Source of the DNA: an uncultured Eubacteriales bacterium
GTDB taxonomy: Bacteria; Bacillota; Clostridia; Oscillospirales; Oscillospiraceae
Length of the DNA stretch: 64,000 nt
Reading direction: 5' to 3'
Assembly: GCA_949283375.1 (NCBI GenBank)
Contig: CASDSM010000009.1
Coordinates: 43,034 to 107,033, forward strand
Of this stretch, positions 2,247 to 12,711 are shown one piece after another. Numbering within the stretch: position 1 is the first letter of the stretch; every line of letters starts with the position of its first letter. The position numbers and the translations under genes were made by a program. The notes beneath the pieces were generated by a model. It did no database searches and had not been told where the DNA came from. It saw nothing but the letters and a program-made list of their open reading frames with translations.

Positions 2247-5200
2247 TTACTGCTGGTTGACGACGGCGTAGAACGCGTCGATCTCCGCCTGCTCGCGGGT
2301 CATGCCCTTCTCCTCGCGCTGCGCGATCGCCTGGAGCATCCGGTTGTAGTCGCGCGGCATGATCTTCTTGAAGTTGGGCAGGTATTCGTCAAAGTGGTCC
2401 AGGATCTCCCGGCCCAGCGCGGAGCCGGTGGCCTTCACATGCCGGCCGATCAGCTCCTTGAGCTCGAGGATGTCGTGCTTCTCCGTCACCGTCTCCATCG
2501 AGACCATCGTCTTGTTCACGCGCATATACAGGTCGCGCTTGCGGTCGAGCACATAGGCGATGCCGCCGGACATGCCGGCCGCAAAGTTCTTGCCCGTCGG
2601 GCCGAGGATAACCGCCCGGCCGCCGGTCATATACTCGCAGCCGTGGTCGCCCACGCCCTCGACGACGGCGGTCGCGCCCGAGTTGCGCACGCAGAAGCGC
2701 TCGCCCGCCACGCCGGAGAGATATGCCTCACCGCCGGTCGCGCCGTAGAGGGCGACGTTGCCGATCAGGATGTTCTCCTCCGGGCGGAAGCGGCTCTCTT
2801 TGGGCGGATAGACGATGATCTTGCCACCGGAGAGGCCCTTGCCGAGATAGTCGTTCGAGTCGCCCTCCAGCTCCAGGGTCAGCCCCTTGGGGATGAACGC
2901 GCCGAAGGACTGTCCGCCGCCGCCATGGCACTTGACGACATAGGTGTCGTCTGGCAGATTGTTGTGGTGCAGCCGGGTGATCTCCGAGCCGAAGATGGTG
3001 CCCAGCGTCCGGTCGGTGGAGGTGACGTCGATCTCAATGCGCTGCGGCTTGCCCTTCTGGAGGTTCTTGCCCATCTTGGCCAGCAGGACGGACTCGTCCA
3101 GCGTCTTCTCCAGGGCGAAGTCGTAGAGGTTGGCGGGGTCAAAGTGCTGCGGCTGTCCGGTGTGCAGCCAGGGATTGTCCAGGATCTGGGAGAGGTCCAC
3201 GGTGGCGGCGCGGTCGGTGACCATGTGCTCGCGCACCTGGAGCAGGTCGGAGCGGCCCACCATCTCCTCGACGGTGCGGATGCCGAGCTTGGCCATGATC
3301 TCGCGCAGCTCCTGGGCGATGAAGCGCATGTAGTTCTCCACATACTCCGGCTTTCCGATGAAGCGCTTGCGCAGCTCGGGGTTCTGGGTGGCGATGCCCA
3401 TCGGGCAGGTGTCCAGGTTGCACACCCGCATCATCACGCAGCCCATGGCCACCATCGGGCCGGTGCCGAAGCCGAACTCCTCCGCGCCCAGCAGGCAGGC
3501 GATGGCGACATCCCGCCCGGTCATCAGCTTGGAGTCCGCCTCGATGACGATGCGCGAGCGCAGGTCGTTCTGGATGAGGGTCTGGTGCGTCTCCGCCACG
3601 CCCAGCTCCCAGGGGAGGCCGGCGTTGTGGATGGAACTCTTGGGGGCCGCGCCCGAGCCGCCGTCGTAGCCAGAGATGAGCACCACCTGCGCCCCCGCCT
3701 TGGCGACGCCTGCGGCGATGGTGCCCACGCCCGCCTCCGAGACCAGCTTGACGTTGATGCGGGCCTTGCGGTTGGCGTTCTTCAGGTCAAAGATGAGCTG
3801 GGCGAGGTCCTCGATGGAGTAGATGTCGTGATGCGGCGGGGGGGAGATCAGCGGCACGCCGGGGGTGGAGTAGCGCGTCTTGGCCACCCAGGGATAGACC
3901 TTCGCGCCGGGCAGGTGGCCGCCCTCGCCGGGCTTGGCGCCCTGTGCCATCTTGATCTGGATCTCGTTGGCGCTCATCAGGTATTCGCTCGTCACGCCGA
4001 AGCGGGCAGAGGCCACCTGCTTGATCTGGCTGTTGCGCTCGGTGCCATAGCGCTCGGCGGGCTCGCCGCCCTCGCCGGTGTTGGACTTGCCGCCCAGGCG
4101 GTTCATGGCGATGGCCATGCACTCATGCGCCTCGGCGGAGAGACACCCGTAGCTCATCGCCGCGGTCTTGAAGCGCTTGACGATGGACTCGACCGGCTCC
4201 ACCTCCTCGATCGGGATGCCGCCGTCCTCCGCCCAGTGGAAGGCCATCAGGCCGCGCAGGGTGTGCGGCTTGTTCTCGTCGTCCACGGCGGCGGAGTACT
4301 GCTTGAAGATGGAGTAGTCCGAATTCCAGAGCGACTGCTGCAGCAGGCTGATGGTCTTGGGGTTGTAGAGGTGGTCCTCCGCCTCCTCGCCGGCGCGGGC
4401 CTTGTGGATGCCGGTGGAGTCGAGCGAGGTATCCGTCGTCAGTCCGAGCGGGTCAAAGGCGTGGTTGTGCCGCCACTCCACCACGTCGTCGATCTCCTTG
4501 AGGCCGATACCGCCTACGCGGGAGATGGTGTTAGTGAAATACTTCTCGATCACGTCCGGATGGATGCCGACCGCCTCAAAAATCTGCGCCGACTGATAGG
4601 ACTGAAGGGTGGAGATGCCCATCTTGGAGGCGATCTTCACGATACCATTCAGGATCGCGCGGTTGTAGTCGTCCACAGCGGCGGAGTACTCCTTGTCGAG
4701 CAGATTTTTGTCGATCAGCTCGCCGATGCACTCCTGGGCGAGGTAGGGGTTGATCGCCGCCGCGCCGTAGCCGAGCAGGGTGGCGAAGTGGTGCACCTCG
4801 CGCGGCTCGGCCGACTCGAGGATGATGGAGATCGCCGTGCGCTTGCGCGTGCGAATCTGATACTGCTCCAGCGCGGAGACGGCGAGCAGGGAGGGGATGG
4901 CCACGTGGTTTTCATCCACACCGCGGTCGGAGAGGATGATGATATTCGCGCCATTGCGGTAGGCGCGGTCCACCGAGACGAACATCCGGTCGATTGCCCG
5001 CTCCAGCGAGGTGTTCTTGTAGTAGAGCAGGGAGACCGTCTCGCAGCGAAAGCCGGGAATTTTCATGTTCCGGATCTTCATCAGGTCGATGCTGGTGAGA
5101 ATGGGGTTGCGGATGTGCAGCACCTTGCAGTTCTCCGCCCGGTCCTCGAGCAGATTGCCCTCGCGGCCGAGGTAGACGGAGGTGTCGGTGACGATCTCCT

Positions 5201-6803
5201 CGCGGATCGCGTCGATCGGCGGGTTGGTCACCTGGGCAAAGAGCTGCTTAAAGTAGTTAAACAGCGGCTGATGCTTCTCCGAGAGCACGGCGAGCGGGAT
5301 GTCCACGCCCATGGCGGCGGTGGGCTCCGAGCCGGTCTGCGCCATCTGGAGGATGGAGTTCTTGACCTCCTCGTAGGTGTAGCCAAAGGCCTTGTAGAGC
5401 CTGTCGCGCTGCTCCTGGGTGTAGCTGTCCACCTTGTGGTTGGGAATCTTCAGGTCCTTGAGCTCCACCAGATTCATATCCAGCCACTCACCGTAAGGCT
5501 CGCGGGCCGCGTAGCCCTCCTTGAGCTCGTCGTCGGTGATCAGGCGGCCGGCGACAGTGTCCACCAGCAGCATCTTGCCCGGCTGCAGGCGGGACTTCTG
5601 GACGATTTTCTCCGGCGGGATATCGAGCACGCCCACCTCAGAGGCGAGGATGAGCTGGTCATCGTCGGTAATATAGTAGCGAGAGGGGCGCAGGCCGTTG
5701 CGGTCGAGCACGGCGCCCACGCAGTCGCCGTCAGAGAAGAGGATAGAGGCCGGGCCGTCCCACGGCTCCATCATGGTGGCGTAGTAGCGGTACATATCCC
5801 GCTTGGCGCGCGACATGTTCTTGTCGTTCATCCACGGCTCGGGGATGCAGAGCATCACCGCCATCGGCAGGTCGATGCCGTTCATCACGAGGAACTCCAG
5901 CGTGTTGTCCAGCCGGGCGGAGTCCGAGCCGGAGGGATTGATGACGGGATAGACCTTGTCCAGGTCATCTCCGCTCATGATCCGGGAGGTCATCGTCTCC
6001 TCGCGGGCGAGCATGCGGTCCACGTTGCCGCGGATGGTGTTGATCTCGCCATTGTGGAGGATGAAGCGGTTGGGGTGCGCGCGCTCCCAGCTCGGATTCG
6101 TGTTGGTGGAAAAGCGGGAGTGTACCATTGCGATGGCGGACTCATAGTCGTGATCCTGCAGGTCGCAGTAGAATTCGCGCAGCTCGGAGACGAGGAACAT
6201 GCCTTTGTAGACGATCGTCCGGCTGGAGCAGGAGGCGACATAGGTGTTGTCATTGGACTGCTCAAAGACCCGGCGGGCGATATAGAGCTTGCGGTCAAAG
6301 GGCAGTCCGCGCTCCACCTTTTCCGGGCGGCGGACAAAGGCCTGCTCGATATAGGGCATGCACGCGCGCGCCTTCTGCCCGAGAATCTCCGGCCGGACGG
6401 GTACCGTGCGCCAGCCGAGCAGCTCCATCCCTTCCTTTTCCACAATGATCTCGAACATCTTCTTGGCCTGCCCGCGGGCGAGCGTGTTCTGGGGGAAGAA
6501 GAACATGCCGATGCCGTAATCCCGCTCTCCGCCCAGCGCGATGCCGGCCTGAGCGGCCGCTTTGGAAAAGAATTTATGACTGATCTGCAGCATAATGCCC
6601 ACGCCGTCACCGGTCTTGCCCTCCGCGTCCTTGCCGGCGCGGTGCTCCAGCTTTTCGACGATCTTCAGCGCGTTGTCCACTGTGGCGTAGGTCTTGCGGC
6701 CCTTGATATCCACCACGCCGCCGATGCCGCAGGCATCATGCTCTAACCGGGGGTCATATAATCCCTGTGCAGGGATCGTGGTCTCAGTCCTGTTCGGTTG
6801 CAT
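2247..6803 (-). CDS. gltB: Glutamate synthase large subunit
   Basis: This 1518-residue protein has the full GltB architecture. A class II glutamine amidotransferase domain with nucleophile Cys25 (LEHDACGIGG) implies removal of a 24-residue propeptide. A linker and an FMN-binding synthase domain follow, with the 3Fe-4S cysteine cluster CVMMRVCNLDTCP near residue 1125. A C-terminal GXGXG beta-helix completes it. It produces two glutamates from glutamine and 2-oxoglutarate together with GltD. I chose the ATG at 6803 because AGGGGA precedes it at normal spacing and the N-terminus then matches the family. An in-frame extension to 6926 lies inside a structured leader and is unlikely to be translated. 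The leader may be a regulatory RNA. Confidence 0.97.
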   Translation of the reverse strand: MQPNRTETTIPAQGLYDPRLEHDACGIGGVVDIKGRKTYATVDNALKIVEKLEHRAGKDAEGKTGDGVGIMLQISHKFFSKAAAQAGIALGGERDYGIGMFFFPQNTLARGQAKKMFEIIVEKEGMELLGWRTVPVRPEILGQKARACMPYIEQAFVRRPEKVERGLPFDRKLYIARRVFEQSNDNTYVASCSSRTIVYKGMFLVSELREFYCDLQDHDYESAIAMVHSRFSTNTNPSWERAHPNRFILHNGEINTIRGNVDRMLAREETMTSRIMSGDDLDKVYPVINPSGSDSARLDNTLEFLVMNGIDLPMAVMLCIPEPWMNDKNMSRAKRDMYRYYATMMEPWDGPASILFSDGDCVGAVLDRNGLRPSRYYITDDDQLILASEVGVLDIPPEKIVQKSRLQPGKMLLVDTVAGRLITDDELKEGYAAREPYGEWLDMNLVELKDLKIPNHKVDSYTQEQRDRLYKAFGYTYEEVKNSILQMAQTGSEPTAAMGVDIPLAVLSEKHQPLFNYFKQLFAQVTNPPIDAIREEIVTDTSVYLGREGNLLEDRAENCKVLHIRNPILTSIDLMKIRNMKIPGFRCETVSLLYYKNTSLERAIDRMFVSVDRAYRNGANIIILSDRGVDENHVAIPSLLAVSALEQYQIRTRKRTAISIILESAEPREVHHFATLLGYGAAAINPYLAQECIGELIDKNLLDKEYSAAVDDYNRAILNGIVKIASKMGISTLQSYQSAQIFEAVGIHPDVIEKYFTNTISRVGGIGLKEIDDVVEWRHNHAFDPLGLTTDTSLDSTGIHKARAGEEAEDHLYNPKTISLLQQSLWNSDYSIFKQYSAAVDDENKPHTLRGLMAFHWAEDGGIPIEEVEPVESIVKRFKTAAMSYGCLSAEAHECMAIAMNRLGGKSNTGEGGEPAERYGTERNSQIKQVASARFGVTSEYLMSANEIQIKMAQGAKPGEGGHLPGAKVYPWVAKTRYSTPGVPLISPPPHHDIYSIEDLAQLIFDLKNANRKARINVKLVSEAGVGTIAAGVAKAGAQVVLISGYDGGSGAAPKSSIHNAGLPWELGVAETHQTLIQNDLRSRIVIEADSKLMTGRDVAIACLLGAEEFGFGTGPMVAMGCVMMRVCNLDTCPMGIATQNPELRKRFIGKPEYVENYMRFIAQELREIMAKLGIRTVEEMVGRSDLLQVREHMVTDRAATVDLSQILDNPWLHTGQPQHFDPANLYDFALEKTLDESVLLAKMGKNLQKGKPQRIEIDVTSTDRTLGTIFGSEITRLHHNNLPDDTYVVKCHGGGGQSFGAFIPKGLTLELEGDSNDYLGKGLSGGKIIVYPPKESRFRPEENILIGNVALYGATGGEAYLSGVAGERFCVRNSGATAVVEGVGDHGCEYMTGGRAVILGPTGKNFAAGMSGGIAYVLDRKRDLYMRVNKTMVSMETVTEKHDILELKELIGRHVKATGSALGREILDHFDEYLPNFKKIMPRDYNRMLQAIAQREEKGMTREQAEIDAFYAVVNQQ

Positions 6804-6960
6804 GTTAATTTTCCCCTTTCCGGTCCCGCTTCTGCGGGACGCTTGCGGTAATCGGACACCAGGTGCCCTGATAAGCACAAGACACCCCAATGGTTGCTGA
6901 AAATGTGCGCGAACAACCGCGCGCATTTCAGAGCAGTCTCCCCATTGAGGCGTCTCGTGA
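6804..6960 (-). promoter_or_regulatory. Structured 5' leader of gltB, candidate RNA regulator
   Basis: On the minus strand this untranslated stretch holds a strong hairpin (6897-6931, CTGAAA-TGCGCG paired with CGCGCA-cat-TTTCAG). A CTC-AATGGG-GAG hairpin (6938-6949) has a six-base loop of the A1/G4 type recognised by ANTAR proteins. A 7-bp stem with AGAA loop (6823-6840) lies just before the ribosome-binding site. CAATGG (6942-6947) could instead pair with CCATTG (6888-6893), so two exclusive folds are possible. No T-rich terminator is visible, so any control may act on translation. The function is inferred. Confidence 0.4.
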
Positions 6961-6986
6961 AATGAGTGTATGGATCTGTTTTATGG

Positions 6987-7012
6987 AAAAAAAGAGCCGG
7001 TGCCCCGCGCTC
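6987..7012 (-). terminator. Terminator at the end of dapL
   Basis: The stem GAGC-CGG / CCG-c-GCTC (6994-7012, one bulged base) overlaps the dapL stop codon. On the minus strand it is followed by seven T residues (plus 6987-6993). It separates the glnA-ANTAR-dapL transcript from gltB. Confidence 0.8.
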
Positions 7013-8237
7013 AGCCGCGCAGCAGCTTTTGGAGGCGCTCGACTGCCTCGCGGGTGTCCGCGGCGTCGCCGAAGGCGGTCAGCCGGATATAGCCCTCGCC
7101 GCTCGGACCAAAGCCGGCGCCCGGGGTGGTGACGACGCAGGCCTCGTGCAGGAGCTTATCAAAGAAGGACCAGGAGTCATATCCCTCCGGCGTGCGGAAC
7201 CAGATATACGGCGCGTTCACACCGCCGTAGACGGTCAACCCGGCCGCGGTGAGGCCCTCGCGGATCACCTTGGCATTGTTCATATAGTAGGCGATGGTCT
7301 CCTGAATCTGCCGCCGGCCCTCTTCCGTAAAGGTGGCCTCGGCGGCCCGCTGGATGACGTAGGCTACGCCGTTGAACTTGGTGCCCTGACGGCGGTTCCA
7401 CAGCGCGTTCAGGCTCACCCCGCCGCGCACCAACTCCTTGCTGATGACGGTGTAGGCGCAGCGGTTGCCGGTGAAGCCGGCGGTCTTGGAGAAGGAGCGG
7501 AACTCGATCGCGCAGGTCTTCGCGCCCGGAATCTCAAAGATGCTGTGCGGCAGCTCGGGCTGGGTGATGAAGGCCTCATAGGCCGAGTCAAAGAGGATGA
7601 CCGAGCCGTGCTCATTGGCGTAGTCCACCCACACCTGCAGCTGCTCGCGCGTGGCGGCGGTGCCGGTGGGGTTGTTCGGGGAGCAGATATAGATCATGTC
7701 CGGGACCTTGTCCCCCTCCGGCAGCTCCGGGAAGAAGCCGTTTTCCGCCGTGCAGGGCAGATAGACCAGATTGGTCCACTTCTCGCCGTCGTAGTCCCCG
7801 GCGCGGCCGGCCATGGCGTTGGTGTCCACATAGACCGGATAGACCGGGTCGCAGACGGCCACGACGTTGTCCACGTCGAAGATATCGCCGATGTTGCCGC
7901 AGTCGCTCTTGGCGCCGTCAGAGACAAAGATCTCGTCGTCGGCGATCTCCACGCCCCGGCGGCGGTAGTCGTCCTGAATGGCAAAGCGCAGGAAGTCATA
8001 GGCCGCGCACGTCTCCTCGCAGTAGCCGCGGAAGGTCTCCTTCCGGCCCATCTCCTCTGTGGCCTTGGCCATAGCGTCGATCACGGCGGGGGCCAGCGGC
8101 TGGGTTACGTCGCCGATCCCCAGACGGATGAGCGGCAGGGGGGGATTCTGCGCCGAGAAGGCGCGCACTCTCCGGCCGATCTCGGGGAACAGATAGCCGC
8201 CCGGCAGCTTTTGAAAGTTGGAATTGATCTTAACCAT
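7011..8237 (-). CDS. dapL: LL-diaminopimelate aminotransferase
   Basis: A 408-residue class I/II PLP aminotransferase matching DapL, which converts tetrahydrodipicolinate directly to LL-diaminopimelate for lysine and peptidoglycan synthesis. Family features seen are the N-terminal [20 protein letters not shown], the substrate loop [16 protein letters not shown], and the PLP lysine in [12 protein letters not shown] near residue 250. The start is the ATG at 8237, preceded by AGGAG. A longer in-frame extension has no support. It follows the ANTAR gene by 42 bp and may be in one transcript with glnA. DapL is the usual route in many clostridia. Confidence 0.95.
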
Positions 8238-8279
8238 ACCATAACTCCTCTTCTCGGATTTTAAAGCAACCGCCGGCAC

Positions 8280-8810
8280 TCAATAGTCGTCCAGAATGAG
8301 ACGGGCGGTCTGTATCATCTTTACACCGGTATCCATGCTCTTTTTTTGCAGATACCGATGGGCCTGTTCTTCCGTCAGACCGTTGCGGTCCATGAGCAGA
8401 TGCTTCGCCTGTTGGATGATCTCTTCCTCCTGATCGGTCCGCCGGGGGCGGATCAGGCGGTTGACCCGCCGGCTCATCTGCAGCACCATGCGCACCGAGG
8501 TGACCAGGTCGCTGCGGGAGATGGGGGCGGGCAGGCGGAGGATATCCTCCGAGACCATATCCAGATGGTGCTGGGCGGCGACCATCAGCAGGGAGGTGGT
8601 GGGGGGCAGGTCCTCATAAAGGGCCTCGCCCGTGCCGTCGCTGAGCCGAAAGCCGCAGACAACCAGGCTGACCTCGTGCTTGGCGGCCGCACGGCGCGCC
8701 TCAGCGCCGCTGCGGCAGGGCAGACAGGCGGCCAGACCGGCTGACTCAATCATCTCACAGATGCGCTGGGTACTTTTTTCACTGTCGAATACGACAATCA
8801 CTCTCTCCAC
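8280..8810 (-). CDS. ANTAR-domain RNA-binding regulator with degenerate receiver
   Basis: This 176-residue protein has a CheY-like N-terminal half (about 1-105) and a C-terminal ANTAR domain (about 115-172; EIIQQAKHLLMDRNGLTEEQAHRYLQKKSM). ANTAR proteins such as NasR, AmiR and EutV bind paired hexaloop hairpins and prevent transcription termination. The receiver looks non-phosphorylatable: the expected aspartate is Gly53 (LVVCGFRLSDG) and the usual Lys-Pro near the end is Ala-Pro (LPAPIS). It lies between glnA and dapL, 47 bp after glnA, and a fitting target lies in the leader of the type III glutamine synthetase. The start is GTG at 8810 with GGGAG upstream. The nitrogen-control role is inferred from neighbours and that leader. 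Confidence 0.85.
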   Translation of the reverse strand: MERVIVVFDSEKSTQRICEMIESAGLAACLPCRSGAEARRAAAKHEVSLVVCGFRLSDGTGEALYEDLPPTTSLLMVAAQHHLDMVSEDILRLPAPISRSDLVTSVRMVLQMSRRVNRLIRPRRTDQEEEIIQQAKHLLMDRNGLTEEQAHRYLQKKSMDTGVKMIQTARLILDDY

Positions 8811-8857
8811 ATAGATGCACTCCCGGTATGCTCACCCGTTCCTGACGGCGCGGGCGG

Positions 8858-10186
8858 TCAGTAACGGAGCAGATATTTGTCACGCTCCCACTGGGAGACC
8901 TGCGCGCAGTATTCCGCCCATTCGGCCTCCTTGCCGTTGATATAGGCCGCGGCGACGTGCGGGCCGAGGGTGTCGAGCAGGAGATGGTCGGCGCGCAGCG
9001 CCTCGAGCGCATCAAAGAGGCTGGCCGGCAGTGAGCGGATGCCTCGGGCCGCGAGCTGGCTCTGGGACATGTGGTAGAGATTTTCCGTGACCTCCGGCGG
9101 CGGCGTCAGGCCGCGGCGGATGCCGTCCAGACCGGCGGCCATGCAGACGGCAAAGGCCAGGTAGGGATTGCAGGAGGGGTCCGGGCTGCGCAGCTCGACG
9201 CGGGTGGCCTCGCCGCTGGCGGCTGGGATGCGGATGAGCGCGGAGCGGTTGGAGGCGGACCAGGCCACATGGCAGGGGGCGGAGTAGCCGGTGATCAGCC
9301 GCTTGTAGCTGTTGACGAGCGGGTTGGTGACCGCCGTCATCGCTCCGGCGTGCTCCATCAGGCCGGCGATGAAGCTCAGCGCCTCCCGCGACAGGCCGTG
9401 CAGGCCGTCGGGGTCATAGAAGATGTTCCTGCCGTTGTGGAAGAGGGACATATTGATGTGCATCCCCGAACCGCAGATGCCGTCCACCGGCTTGGGCATA
9501 AAGGTGGCGTGCAGGCCGTTGCGCTGGGCGATGGTCTTGACCGCCAGCTTGAAGGTCATCAGGTCGTCCGCCGCCTTGAGCGCGGGCTCATAGCGGAAGT
9601 CGATCTCGTGCTGGCCGGGGGCCATCTCGTGGTGGCTGGTCTCGATGGTGAAGCCCAGCTCCTCCAGACTGAGGGAGACCTCCCGCCGCGTCGCCTCGCC
9701 CTGGTCGAGCGGGCCGAGGTCAAAGTAGCCCGCCTGGTCGCTCGGGGAGAGGGAGGGCATCCCGCGGTCGTCCGTCTGGAAGAGGAAGAACTCGCACTCC
9801 GGGCCGATGTTCATCGTATAGCCCAGCTCCGCCGCCTGCTGGCAGACGCGCCGCAGCGCCTGGCGGCAGTCCCCGGAGAAGGGGGAGCCGTCCGGATTGT
9901 GCACGTCACAGAGAAAACGCGCCACCTTGCCGCGCGAGGGGCGCCAGGGGTAGATGGCGAAGCTGTCGAGATCGGGGTAGAGATACTGGTCAGACTCGTT
10001 GACCTCGGAAAAGCCGTTGATGGAGGACCCGTCGATCATCACCTGGTTGTCAAACACCCGGTTGATCTGCGAGGCGTTCACGGCCACGTTTTTCAGCGTG
10101 CCGAACACATCGGTAAACTGCATGCGGATGAATTTGATATCCTGTTCCTCGATGATGCGCAGGATATCCTCTCTGCTGTATCCCAT
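8858..10186 (-). CDS. glnA: Glutamine synthetase type I
   Basis: A 442-residue GSI of the shorter firmicute (GSI-alpha) size, which condenses ammonia and glutamate using ATP. Visible motifs are the N-terminal beta-Grasp region (IKFIRMQFTDVFGTLKNV), DGSSINGF, the metal-site segment IGPECEFFLF, the GSGMHINMS histidine region, and the ATP/glutamate segment NSYKRLITGYSAP. No adenylylation-type tyrosine insertion is obvious. An excellent promoter lies upstream, and GGGAGG precedes the ATG. It is divergent from a second, unrelated type III synthetase, so the organism carries two glutamine synthetases in one locus. Confidence 0.96.
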   Translation of the reverse strand: MGYSREDILRIIEEQDIKFIRMQFTDVFGTLKNVAVNASQINRVFDNQVMIDGSSINGFSEVNESDQYLYPDLDSFAIYPWRPSRGKVARFLCDVHNPDGSPFSGDCRQALRRVCQQAAELGYTMNIGPECEFFLFQTDDRGMPSLSPSDQAGYFDLGPLDQGEATRREVSLSLEELGFTIETSHHEMAPGQHEIDFRYEPALKAADDLMTFKLAVKTIAQRNGLHATFMPKPVDGICGSGMHINMSLFHNGRNIFYDPDGLHGLSREALSFIAGLMEHAGAMTAVTNPLVNSYKRLITGYSAPCHVAWSASNRSALIRIPAASGEATRVELRSPDPSCNPYLAFAVCMAAGLDGIRRGLTPPPEVTENLYHMSQSQLAARGIRSLPASLFDALEALRADHLLLDTLGPHVAAAYINGKEAEWAEYCAQVSQWERDKYLLRY

Positions 10187-10252
10187 CGTAAGCGTCCTCC
10201 CGGTTTGCGCCGCCCAAGAGCCGTCCTCCGGCCACAGGCGTCAGATAATATA

Positions 10253-10281
10253 ATAGTAAACATTTCGGCGGGGCCTGTCAA
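10253..10281 (-). promoter_or_regulatory. Promoter of glnA
   Basis: On the minus strand TTGACA (plus 10276-10281) and TACTAT (plus 10253-10258) are 17 bases apart. The 431-bp region between the two divergent synthetase genes holds this promoter, the glnN promoter and the glnN leader. Confidence 0.75.
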
Positions 10282-10392
10282 GGCGTAATGGCTGATTTTG
10301 AATTTTGTGCCCGGCGTTCCGTTAAAACTCCCTAAAATATGGGGGGAGGCGGCCCGCGCCTGACGGCGTTTTGAATGAATGTGAAAAAACGC

Positions 10393-10421
10393 TTGCAAAT
10401 TCCGCGGGAATAGTGTATGCT
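10393..10421 (+). promoter_or_regulatory. Promoter of type III glutamine synthetase
   Basis: TTGCAA (10393-10398) and TATGCT (10416-10421) are separated by 17 bases. Transcription would start near 10428, giving a leader of about 190 bases. Confidence 0.7.
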
Positions 10422-10463
10422 GGTCACGTCAAGAAACGCCGTGGGCGTGACTTCAAAACGGAA

Positions 10464-10534
10464 CAGTCAGAGATGGTAGAGGCGACAATGGAGTCCCCCT
10501 GGTAAGGCAGGTCGGGCGCATTGTCTCTTTTCGT
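10464..10534 (+). promoter_or_regulatory. ANTAR-type antitermination leader of glnN
   Basis: Two short hairpins with six-base loops are followed by an overlapping terminator. P2 (10481-10498) is GGCGAC-AATGGA-GTCCCC, and P1 (10464-10479) is a weaker stem around loop AGAGAT. Both loops have A at position 1 and G at position 4, the ANTAR signature. The terminator pairs GACAATG (10484-10490) with CATTGTC (10519-10525) and continues TCTTTTCGTTTT. Forming P2 uses up the 5' terminator arm, the standard antitermination geometry. The ANTAR protein is encoded 1.6 kb away. P1 relies on G-U pairs, so that part is less certain. Confidence 0.65.
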
Positions 10535-10617
10535 TTTCCGTCTGTTGCAAACCCGGGGAGCGCGGAGACGGCCGCCTTCCCACAGCCACACAGCCACAAG
10601 GAAAGGGTTGAGACAAG

Positions 10618-12711
<2,094 letters not shown>

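Follow-up and report, generated by a model that had tools for sequence, protein, structure and literature searches.

In the 64,000-nt stretch of DNA from an uncultured Eubacteriales bacterium analysed here (the window, taken at its full length), the gene of a type I glutamine synthetase (GSI; glnA) is followed by that of an ANTAR-domain protein, and the neighboring gene glnN, encoding a type III glutamine synthetase (GSIII), is preceded by a leader in which a single hexaloop hairpin overlaps a terminator. According to the proposed model, GSI would serve as nitrogen sensor and the ANTAR protein as its antiterminator partner. The latter would bind one hexaloop with A at position 1 and G at position 4 (A1/G4) in the glnN leader and another one before the glutamate synthase gene gltB; because some bases of every hexaloop hairpin also belong to a terminator, binding would favor the hairpin and RNA polymerase would read through. 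Depending on its ligand state, GSI would either retain the ANTAR protein or set it free, in the manner of AmiC/AmiR, NasS/NasT or feedback-inhibited glutamine synthetase (GS) and TnrA or GlnR, and its impairment would leave GSIII as the working and regulated synthetase. In its widest form, this reading states that a Clostridial GSI has repeatedly been turned from an enzyme into a nitrogen sensor, which would directly contact a phosphorylation-dead ANTAR protein and control, by single-hexaloop antitermination, a regulon of GSIII, glutamate synthase, ammonium transport/PII, asparagine synthesis and glutamate dehydrogenase genes; its probability is put at about 0.42. The ANTAR protein very probably acts on these hexaloops, and RNA attenuation combined with some control by GSI has somewhat better than even odds; hexaloop binding, the activating direction and the GSI signal are inferred by analogy with known systems. 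The features that carry this reading are:

8858..10186, minus strand: glnA, type I glutamine synthetase (GSI), candidate sensor (TIGR00653, 522 bits, over the cut-off; residue table; tree)
8280..8810, minus strand: ANTAR protein with pseudo-receiver, candidate antiterminator (Pfam; alignments; AlphaFold2 model and PDB matches)
10618..12711, plus strand: glnN, type III glutamine synthetase (GSIII), putative target gene (GSIII_N and Gln-synt_C-ter domains)
10393..10421, plus strand: predicted glnN promoter, TTGCAA, 17 nt, TATGCT (read from the sequence, also reported by script)
10481..10498, plus strand: hairpin P2 of glnN (putative antiterminator), loop AATGGA at 10487-10492
10484..10537, plus strand: predicted glnN terminator, mutually exclusive with P2; arms 10484-10490 and 10519-10525, T-rich tract 10526-10537

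The P2 hairpin of the glnN leader reads GAC[AATGGA]GTC; the segment GACAATG (10484-10490) alternatively pairs with CATTGTC (10519-10525), which is followed by TCTTTTCGTTTT, and the calculated folding energies are −4.3 kcal/mol for P2 and −20.3 kcal/mol for the terminator. A preliminary description of the window had already pointed out this AATGGA hexaloop (10487-10492) with its 5′ arm shared by a terminator; the element proved to be real, and both the loop positions and the terminator are conserved among relatives. A at position 1 and G at position 4 are present in all 26 glnN leaders of the genus (alignment A1), which were chosen by a pattern that already requires these two letters. Across 31 sequences of the order, 81.7% of the alignment cells of the six-pair P2 stem hold a formed pair (72.5% on average in shuffles), 17 cells carry changes on both sides (7.5 on average), and covariation scores 0.313 (0.187 on average); each of these three values was reached by none of 500 shuffles. 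Two of the six pairs are invariant, and one pair is unformed in 20 of the 31 sequences. At gathering score, Rfam recognized one tRNA in the window and no family on the glnN leader, where the only match at a permissive E-value was a chance CRISPR repeat; a generic promoter and terminator scan of positions 8200-10700 reported no terminator, because its pattern (loop of 3-8 nt) is unsuited to this element.

In sequence comparisons, the leader motif and the terminator are tied to a GS-linked ANTAR gene. Of 59 related genomes, 40 contain ANTAR domains, which occupy 43 places in total, including one remnant below the cut-off. GSI lies directly upstream at 41 of these places, the window included, the two exceptions being a true receiver-ANTAR protein (L056) and a gene located at the end of its contig (L076). 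Named relatives of the ANTAR protein, taken from the best 80 of 477 in the ANTAR scan (79 loci, mostly labelled Clostridia and without C. thermocellum among them), revealed GSI directly before the ANTAR gene in 73 of 76 testable loci, 64 by gene calls and nine by tblastn (two of the nine partial at contig ends); three loci were cut too close to judge the adjacency, and the exceptions contain GSI elsewhere on the locus (L162) or no GSI (L143, L195). Matches at E < 0.01 to the model R1, which was built from these same leaders, were present in 33/40 genomes with an ANTAR domain versus 1/19 without, and 20 stretches around some weaker R1 matches and other GSIII copies were examined. The strict scanner found a hexaloop in 31/48 GSIII leaders of ANTAR-containing genomes (a few of these weak, i.e. 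L231 and the ACCGAG loops of G025) versus 1/13 leaders of ANTAR-free genomes; seven further leaders of the former group fit the looser pattern only. Three genomes of the window's genus (G011-G013) jointly lack ANTAR gene, GSI and motif (G011 is 80% complete), and the motif was not found before the extra GSIII copies of ANTAR-containing genomes (L028, L226-L230, L232).

Some single loci deserve mention in their own right. At L075 (G014), the ANTAR gene next to an intact GSI looks broken (a frame of 36 amino acids with a domain remnant), and the GSIII leader retains an AAAGGG loop; GSI-ANTAR pairs are also present on contigs labelled Spirochaetaceae and Spirochaetales (L206, L212), which may reflect wrong labels or gene transfer. 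An apparent GSI-ANTAR fusion (a frame of 628 amino acids at L152) was rejected, as two separate genes are present.

The single A1/G4 hexaloop at terminators occurs beyond chance expectation. An unselected test covered 3965 candidate terminators of 172 loci on both strands, with every hexaloop hairpin overlapping a 5′ arm recorded. In non-coding sequence up to 350 nt before a gene start, A1/G4 accounted for 149 rows, and each of the remaining 15 letter combinations at positions 1 and 4 for 11-38 (23.6 on average). These rows are not independent counts, because sites can recur and many loci are closely related; the excess was smaller without the non-coding filter (381 versus 152-281). The scanner is limited by its permissive terminators, repeated rows and simple calls of open reading frames that missed genes, among them seven GSIs recovered by tblastn. 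The 149 rows precede GSIII (54), GSI (15), gltB (14), an ANTAR gene (1) and other genes (65). From the last group, 20 genes were hand-picked for Pfam analysis, which assigned 15 to the metabolism of ammonia, glutamate or asparagine: six ammonium transporters (four of them PII fusions), three proteins with a glutamate synthase amidotransferase domain, two AsnA, two AsnB and two glutamate dehydrogenases. The remaining five comprise two CTP synthases, one adenylosuccinate synthetase, one AAA ATPase and one protein without family; the two CTP synthase genes and the adenylosuccinate synthetase gene with their terminator-overlapping A1/G4 hexaloops are located on L146, L165 and L177.

The preliminary description had assumed paired A1/G4 hexaloops in the glnN leader, with the following hairpin as the upstream partner:

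10466..10477, plus strand: proposed P1, loop AGAGAT at 10469-10474, not supported

This candidate failed on energy, shuffle chance and conservation. Two of its three pairs are G-U, the 18-nt segment folds to no structure, and the hairpin when forced costs +3.2 kcal/mol; when the 61-nt leader was dinucleotide-shuffled 2000 times, an A1/G4 hexaloop with three or more pairs arose in 351 cases, and among the 26 genus leaders the P1 sequence is restricted to the window and its sister G010. The tests for P1 covered hexaloop shapes. An upstream A1/G4 hexaloop before distinct P2 sites was found in 3/17 cases in the genus, 0/21 in the order and 3/84 elsewhere, not above the other loop types; three of these six cases (L037, L159, L174) are P2 recounted, two fall in L074, from an ANTAR-free genome and not before GSIII, and one in L195. 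Likewise, one of 69 strict sites of the named loci (closing C-G, loop A[AG]NG[GA]N; 69 sites in 45 of the 79 loci) is accompanied by a second A1/G4 hexaloop shortly upstream. In six relatives of the order with TTGACA-17-TATAAT-like promoters, the stem starts 3-7 nt past the predicted transcript start, and four of these six have two such attenuators in tandem. From the leader sequences, it seems likely that one hexaloop is sufficient; since published ANTAR antitermination needs two, these leaders, if working, work differently.

The ANTAR-domain gene between glnA and dapL, likewise part of the preliminary description, was confirmed by gene calls and Pfam (ANTAR E 2.8e-16, 59.5 bits versus a cut-off of 27.3); it is the single ANTAR match in the host genome, which is 98.64% complete. 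The Response_reg match of the protein remains under its cut-off (20.7 versus 30.2 bits). In the alignment to Rv1626 and EutV the phospho-Asp position is occupied by Gly (VVCGF), so the protein lacks the phosphorylatable Asp and acid pair of a response regulator of the EutV type; of 119 aligned GS-type ANTAR proteins, five retain the phospho-Asp, none the first Asp of the acid pair and 81 the Lys. Judged by these residues, the receiver domain is dead. The AlphaFold2 model (predicted local distance difference score, pLDDT, 91.4; predicted template modelling score, pTM, 0.70) matches the fold of the ANTAR family, i.e. a receiver-like domain, a long helix and the three-helix ANTAR domain, with 1s8n, 6ww6, 6wsh and 1qo0 (Rv1626, EutV, AmiR) as best PDB matches. 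By manual mapping on the alignment, the EutV RNA-contact positions Lys149, Glu160 and Met172 are retained. The position of EutV Tyr164, the Tyr that stacks on G4, is occupied by His in all 23 sequences of alignment A3; the invariance of this His and of the Met-Asp in alignment A4 is uninformative because the scan pattern fixes them, A3 being independent.

In the window GSI, the catalytic flap Glu expected of an active type I enzyme is replaced by Ser (GYSAP) and the Arg62 position is occupied by Glu, with the checked metal-ligand positions being kept. Overall, the flap Glu is replaced in 72/105 ANTAR-linked GSIs: in 23/41 of the relatives (11 Ser, 11 Lys, one Ala) and in 49/64 of the named loci (40 Lys; two of the rest Asp). 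Arg62, the feedback residue of Bacillus subtilis GS (PMC9249791), is present in none of the 64 named linked GSIs (two gaps). A tree of 115 GSI sequences implies at least seven changes between Glu and not-Glu and contains a large, mostly-Lys clade and a Ser clade of 11 that includes the window. The ratio of nonsynonymous to synonymous divergence (dN/dS) of GSI is 0-0.16 over ten pairs, and the gene therefore appears to be maintained under purifying selection. Taken at face value, these residues point to a GSI that is probably catalytically impaired in the lineage of the window; whether it is the sensor for the ANTAR protein is, from the same kind of comparison, an even bet. At L103 (G033), where no ANTAR gene was detected, GSI lacks several metal and substrate positions (E189, E196, H245, R321, R335).

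A second candidate switch precedes gltB on the minus strand, in the following arrangement:

2247..6926, minus strand: gltB, glutamate synthase large subunit, putative second target; its start is probably near 6818, because the genus homologues align only from about residue 37
6936..6951, minus strand: gltB hexaloop hairpin CTC[AATGGG]GAG, loop 6941-6946
6876..6959, minus strand: 18-pair terminator-like hairpin enclosing the gltB hexaloop; window copy without clear T tract
7011..8279, minus strand: dapL, between the ANTAR gene and gltB, same direction

The motif recurs in 22 of 24 gltB leaders of the genus, 19 of which have at least four stem pairs, the other three, window included, combining three pairs with one mismatch. 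All 22 share the identical core CTCAATGGGGAG, nine of its twelve letters being preset by the search string; the site was found with the hexaloop scanner and was missed by R1, which was trained on GSIII leaders. As the copy in the window has no clear T tract and six of the 22 leaders (G015, G020, G023, G026, G027, G031) form no terminator using the hexaloop arm, the gltB switch is less certain than that of glnN.

The preliminary description had further inferred a self-contained nitrogen-control circuit in which the ANTAR protein switches on GSIII. An ANTAR-type attenuator before glnN is borne out by the co-occurrence of loop, terminator and GS-linked ANTAR gene, and the activating direction would follow from the behavior of the ANTAR family; the term self-contained is too narrow in view of the candidate gltB attenuator in the window, the motif before many nitrogen genes and an input that probably comes from the glnA product.

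Several findings, besides the shortcomings of the gltB leaders, weigh against the sensor/antiterminator model. In the P2 stem, the number of double-change pairs (3) was as high in 427/500 shuffles and that of further pair types (9) as high in 268/500. One genome (G006, L077; 93% complete) carries a GSIII leader with the hexaloop AGTGGA and a terminator, and neither an ANTAR gene nor GSI was found in it; conversely, the GSIII leaders examined in the ANTAR-containing genomes G036, G042 and G054 revealed no motif. Five basic RNA-contact residues of EutV (Arg142, Lys143, Lys147, Arg168, Arg175) are non-basic in the window protein by manual mapping. The flap Glu is kept by 18/41 and 15/64 linked GSIs, and its presence in 13/13 unlinked GSIs is an imperfect control because most of these belong to another subfamily of 458-474 amino acids. 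In Enterococcus faecalis, both hexaloops and their spacing are reported to be required (PMC8934654).

This last requirement is the starting point for an ordinary dual-hexaloop attenuator of the EutV/NasR kind, in which P1 would be degenerate or of another shape. The known ANTAR targets carry two hexaloops; according to the structural work of Walshe et al., one hexaloop is the binding unit and an ANTAR dimer has to engage both of two hexaloops for antitermination, the reasons being discussed at length (PMC8934654), and a summary model has response-regulator ANTAR proteins bind single hairpins with low affinity. Room for a further element would exist, as most genus predictions leave 43-69 nt of transcript before P2 (53 in the window), including a conserved GAACAG-like stretch (10423-10480 in the window, and in genus leaders). 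A long stem of this stretch with sequence past the T tract is attractive in single folds and statistically weak over the 26 genus leaders (mean z −1.03, four below −2). Set against the instability of the window P1, the six relatives without room for P1 and upstream A1/G4 hexaloops that are no commoner than other types, a dual-hexaloop mechanism is considered unlikely.

A stronger competitor, though still clearly short of even odds, accepts the RNA part and regards GSI as an enzyme that merely shares the operon, the ANTAR protein being controlled by PII, another protein or a small molecule. It would accommodate the 33/105 linked GSIs with flap Glu, the mostly retained metal ligands and the ammonium transporter/PII genes among the motif carriers; against it stand the GSI-ANTAR pairing at 41/43 places and in 73/76 named loci, the joint absence of GSI, ANTAR gene and motif in G011-G013 (with G011 80% complete), and a flap Glu that was lost repeatedly while purifying selection acted on GSI. 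That the hexaloop simply belongs to a terminator which is constitutive or under some other control, with the ANTAR protein acting elsewhere, agrees with the lack of an Rfam family on the leader; given the A1/G4 enrichment, the tie to the ANTAR gene, the stem covariation and the recurrence before gltB and other nitrogen genes, it is very improbable.

Apart from these questions, glnA and the leader (window 8800-10600) are 71-92% identical to the sister locus L032 (G010) and the flank 6800-8800 is 95-99% identical; the synonymous divergence (dS) is 0.46 for GSI and 0.09-0.11 for ANTAR gene, dapL and gltB. A recombined tract at 8800-10600 relative to L032 is therefore likely.

Compared with described systems, the proposed pair shares the ANTAR domain, the A1/G4 hexaloop and the mutual exclusion of P2 and terminator with the EutV/EutW-controlled eut leaders of E. 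faecalis and the NasR-controlled nasF leader (PMC3369931, PMC8934654, PMC3369936); it differs from EutV and NasR in having one hexaloop, neither a phosphorylatable receiver nor a NIT domain, and His for the Tyr of EutV stacking on G4. Control of an ANTAR protein by a ligand-binding partner is reported for AmiC-AmiR, AmiR having a pseudo-receiver, and NasS-NasT (PMC3369936, PMC3795266), whereas in the present proposal a glutamine synthetase takes the role of the partner. In Bacilli, feedback-inhibited GS serves as nitrogen sensor, with GlnR and TnrA docking on its E flap and on the D50 loop and Arg62 loop (PMC9249791); here, in contrast, an RNA-binding ANTAR protein would be the regulator, GSI has often lost the flap Glu and Arg62 on which this docking relies in Bacilli, and the pairing is known from synteny, joint absence and residue changes. 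Also related is an ANTAR-type antiterminator gene near glnA, with a proposed ammonia response, in glnA-nitR of C. acetobutylicum and in C. thermocellum, where Clo1313_2030 is numbered next to glnA Clo1313_2031; the excerpted account (PMC4676874) contains no leader structure, single hexaloop or GSI flap changes. Ramesh 2012 predicted ANTAR targets upstream of genes for glutamine/glutamate synthase, PII and ammonium transporters, i.e. the same gene classes and hexaloop logic, and the search modelled two hairpins, which most sites found here would not fit. Since both a nitR-type gene accompanying glnA and ANTAR targets upstream of glutamine synthetase genes are on record, the kind of system is known. 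In the open-licence literature searched, no description was found of GS attenuators with a single hexaloop or of a GSI acting as sensor of an ANTAR protein; within that scope, two points appear to be new, namely the rule of one hexaloop and a GSI flap Glu that was lost repeatedly beside an ANTAR protein with dead receiver.

The leaders look like natural single-hexaloop attenuators, some of them near the first transcribed base, and make the two-hexaloop requirement directly testable. The GSI part would provide a concrete sensor for Clostridial nitrogen control and a pairing of GS and regulator beyond the GlnR/TnrA scheme. Rydzak reportedly found in 2017 that deletion of the type I glutamine synthetase deregulates nitrogen metabolism in C. 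thermocellum; if true, a GSI sensor together with a single-hexaloop regulon would explain this glnA deletion phenotype.

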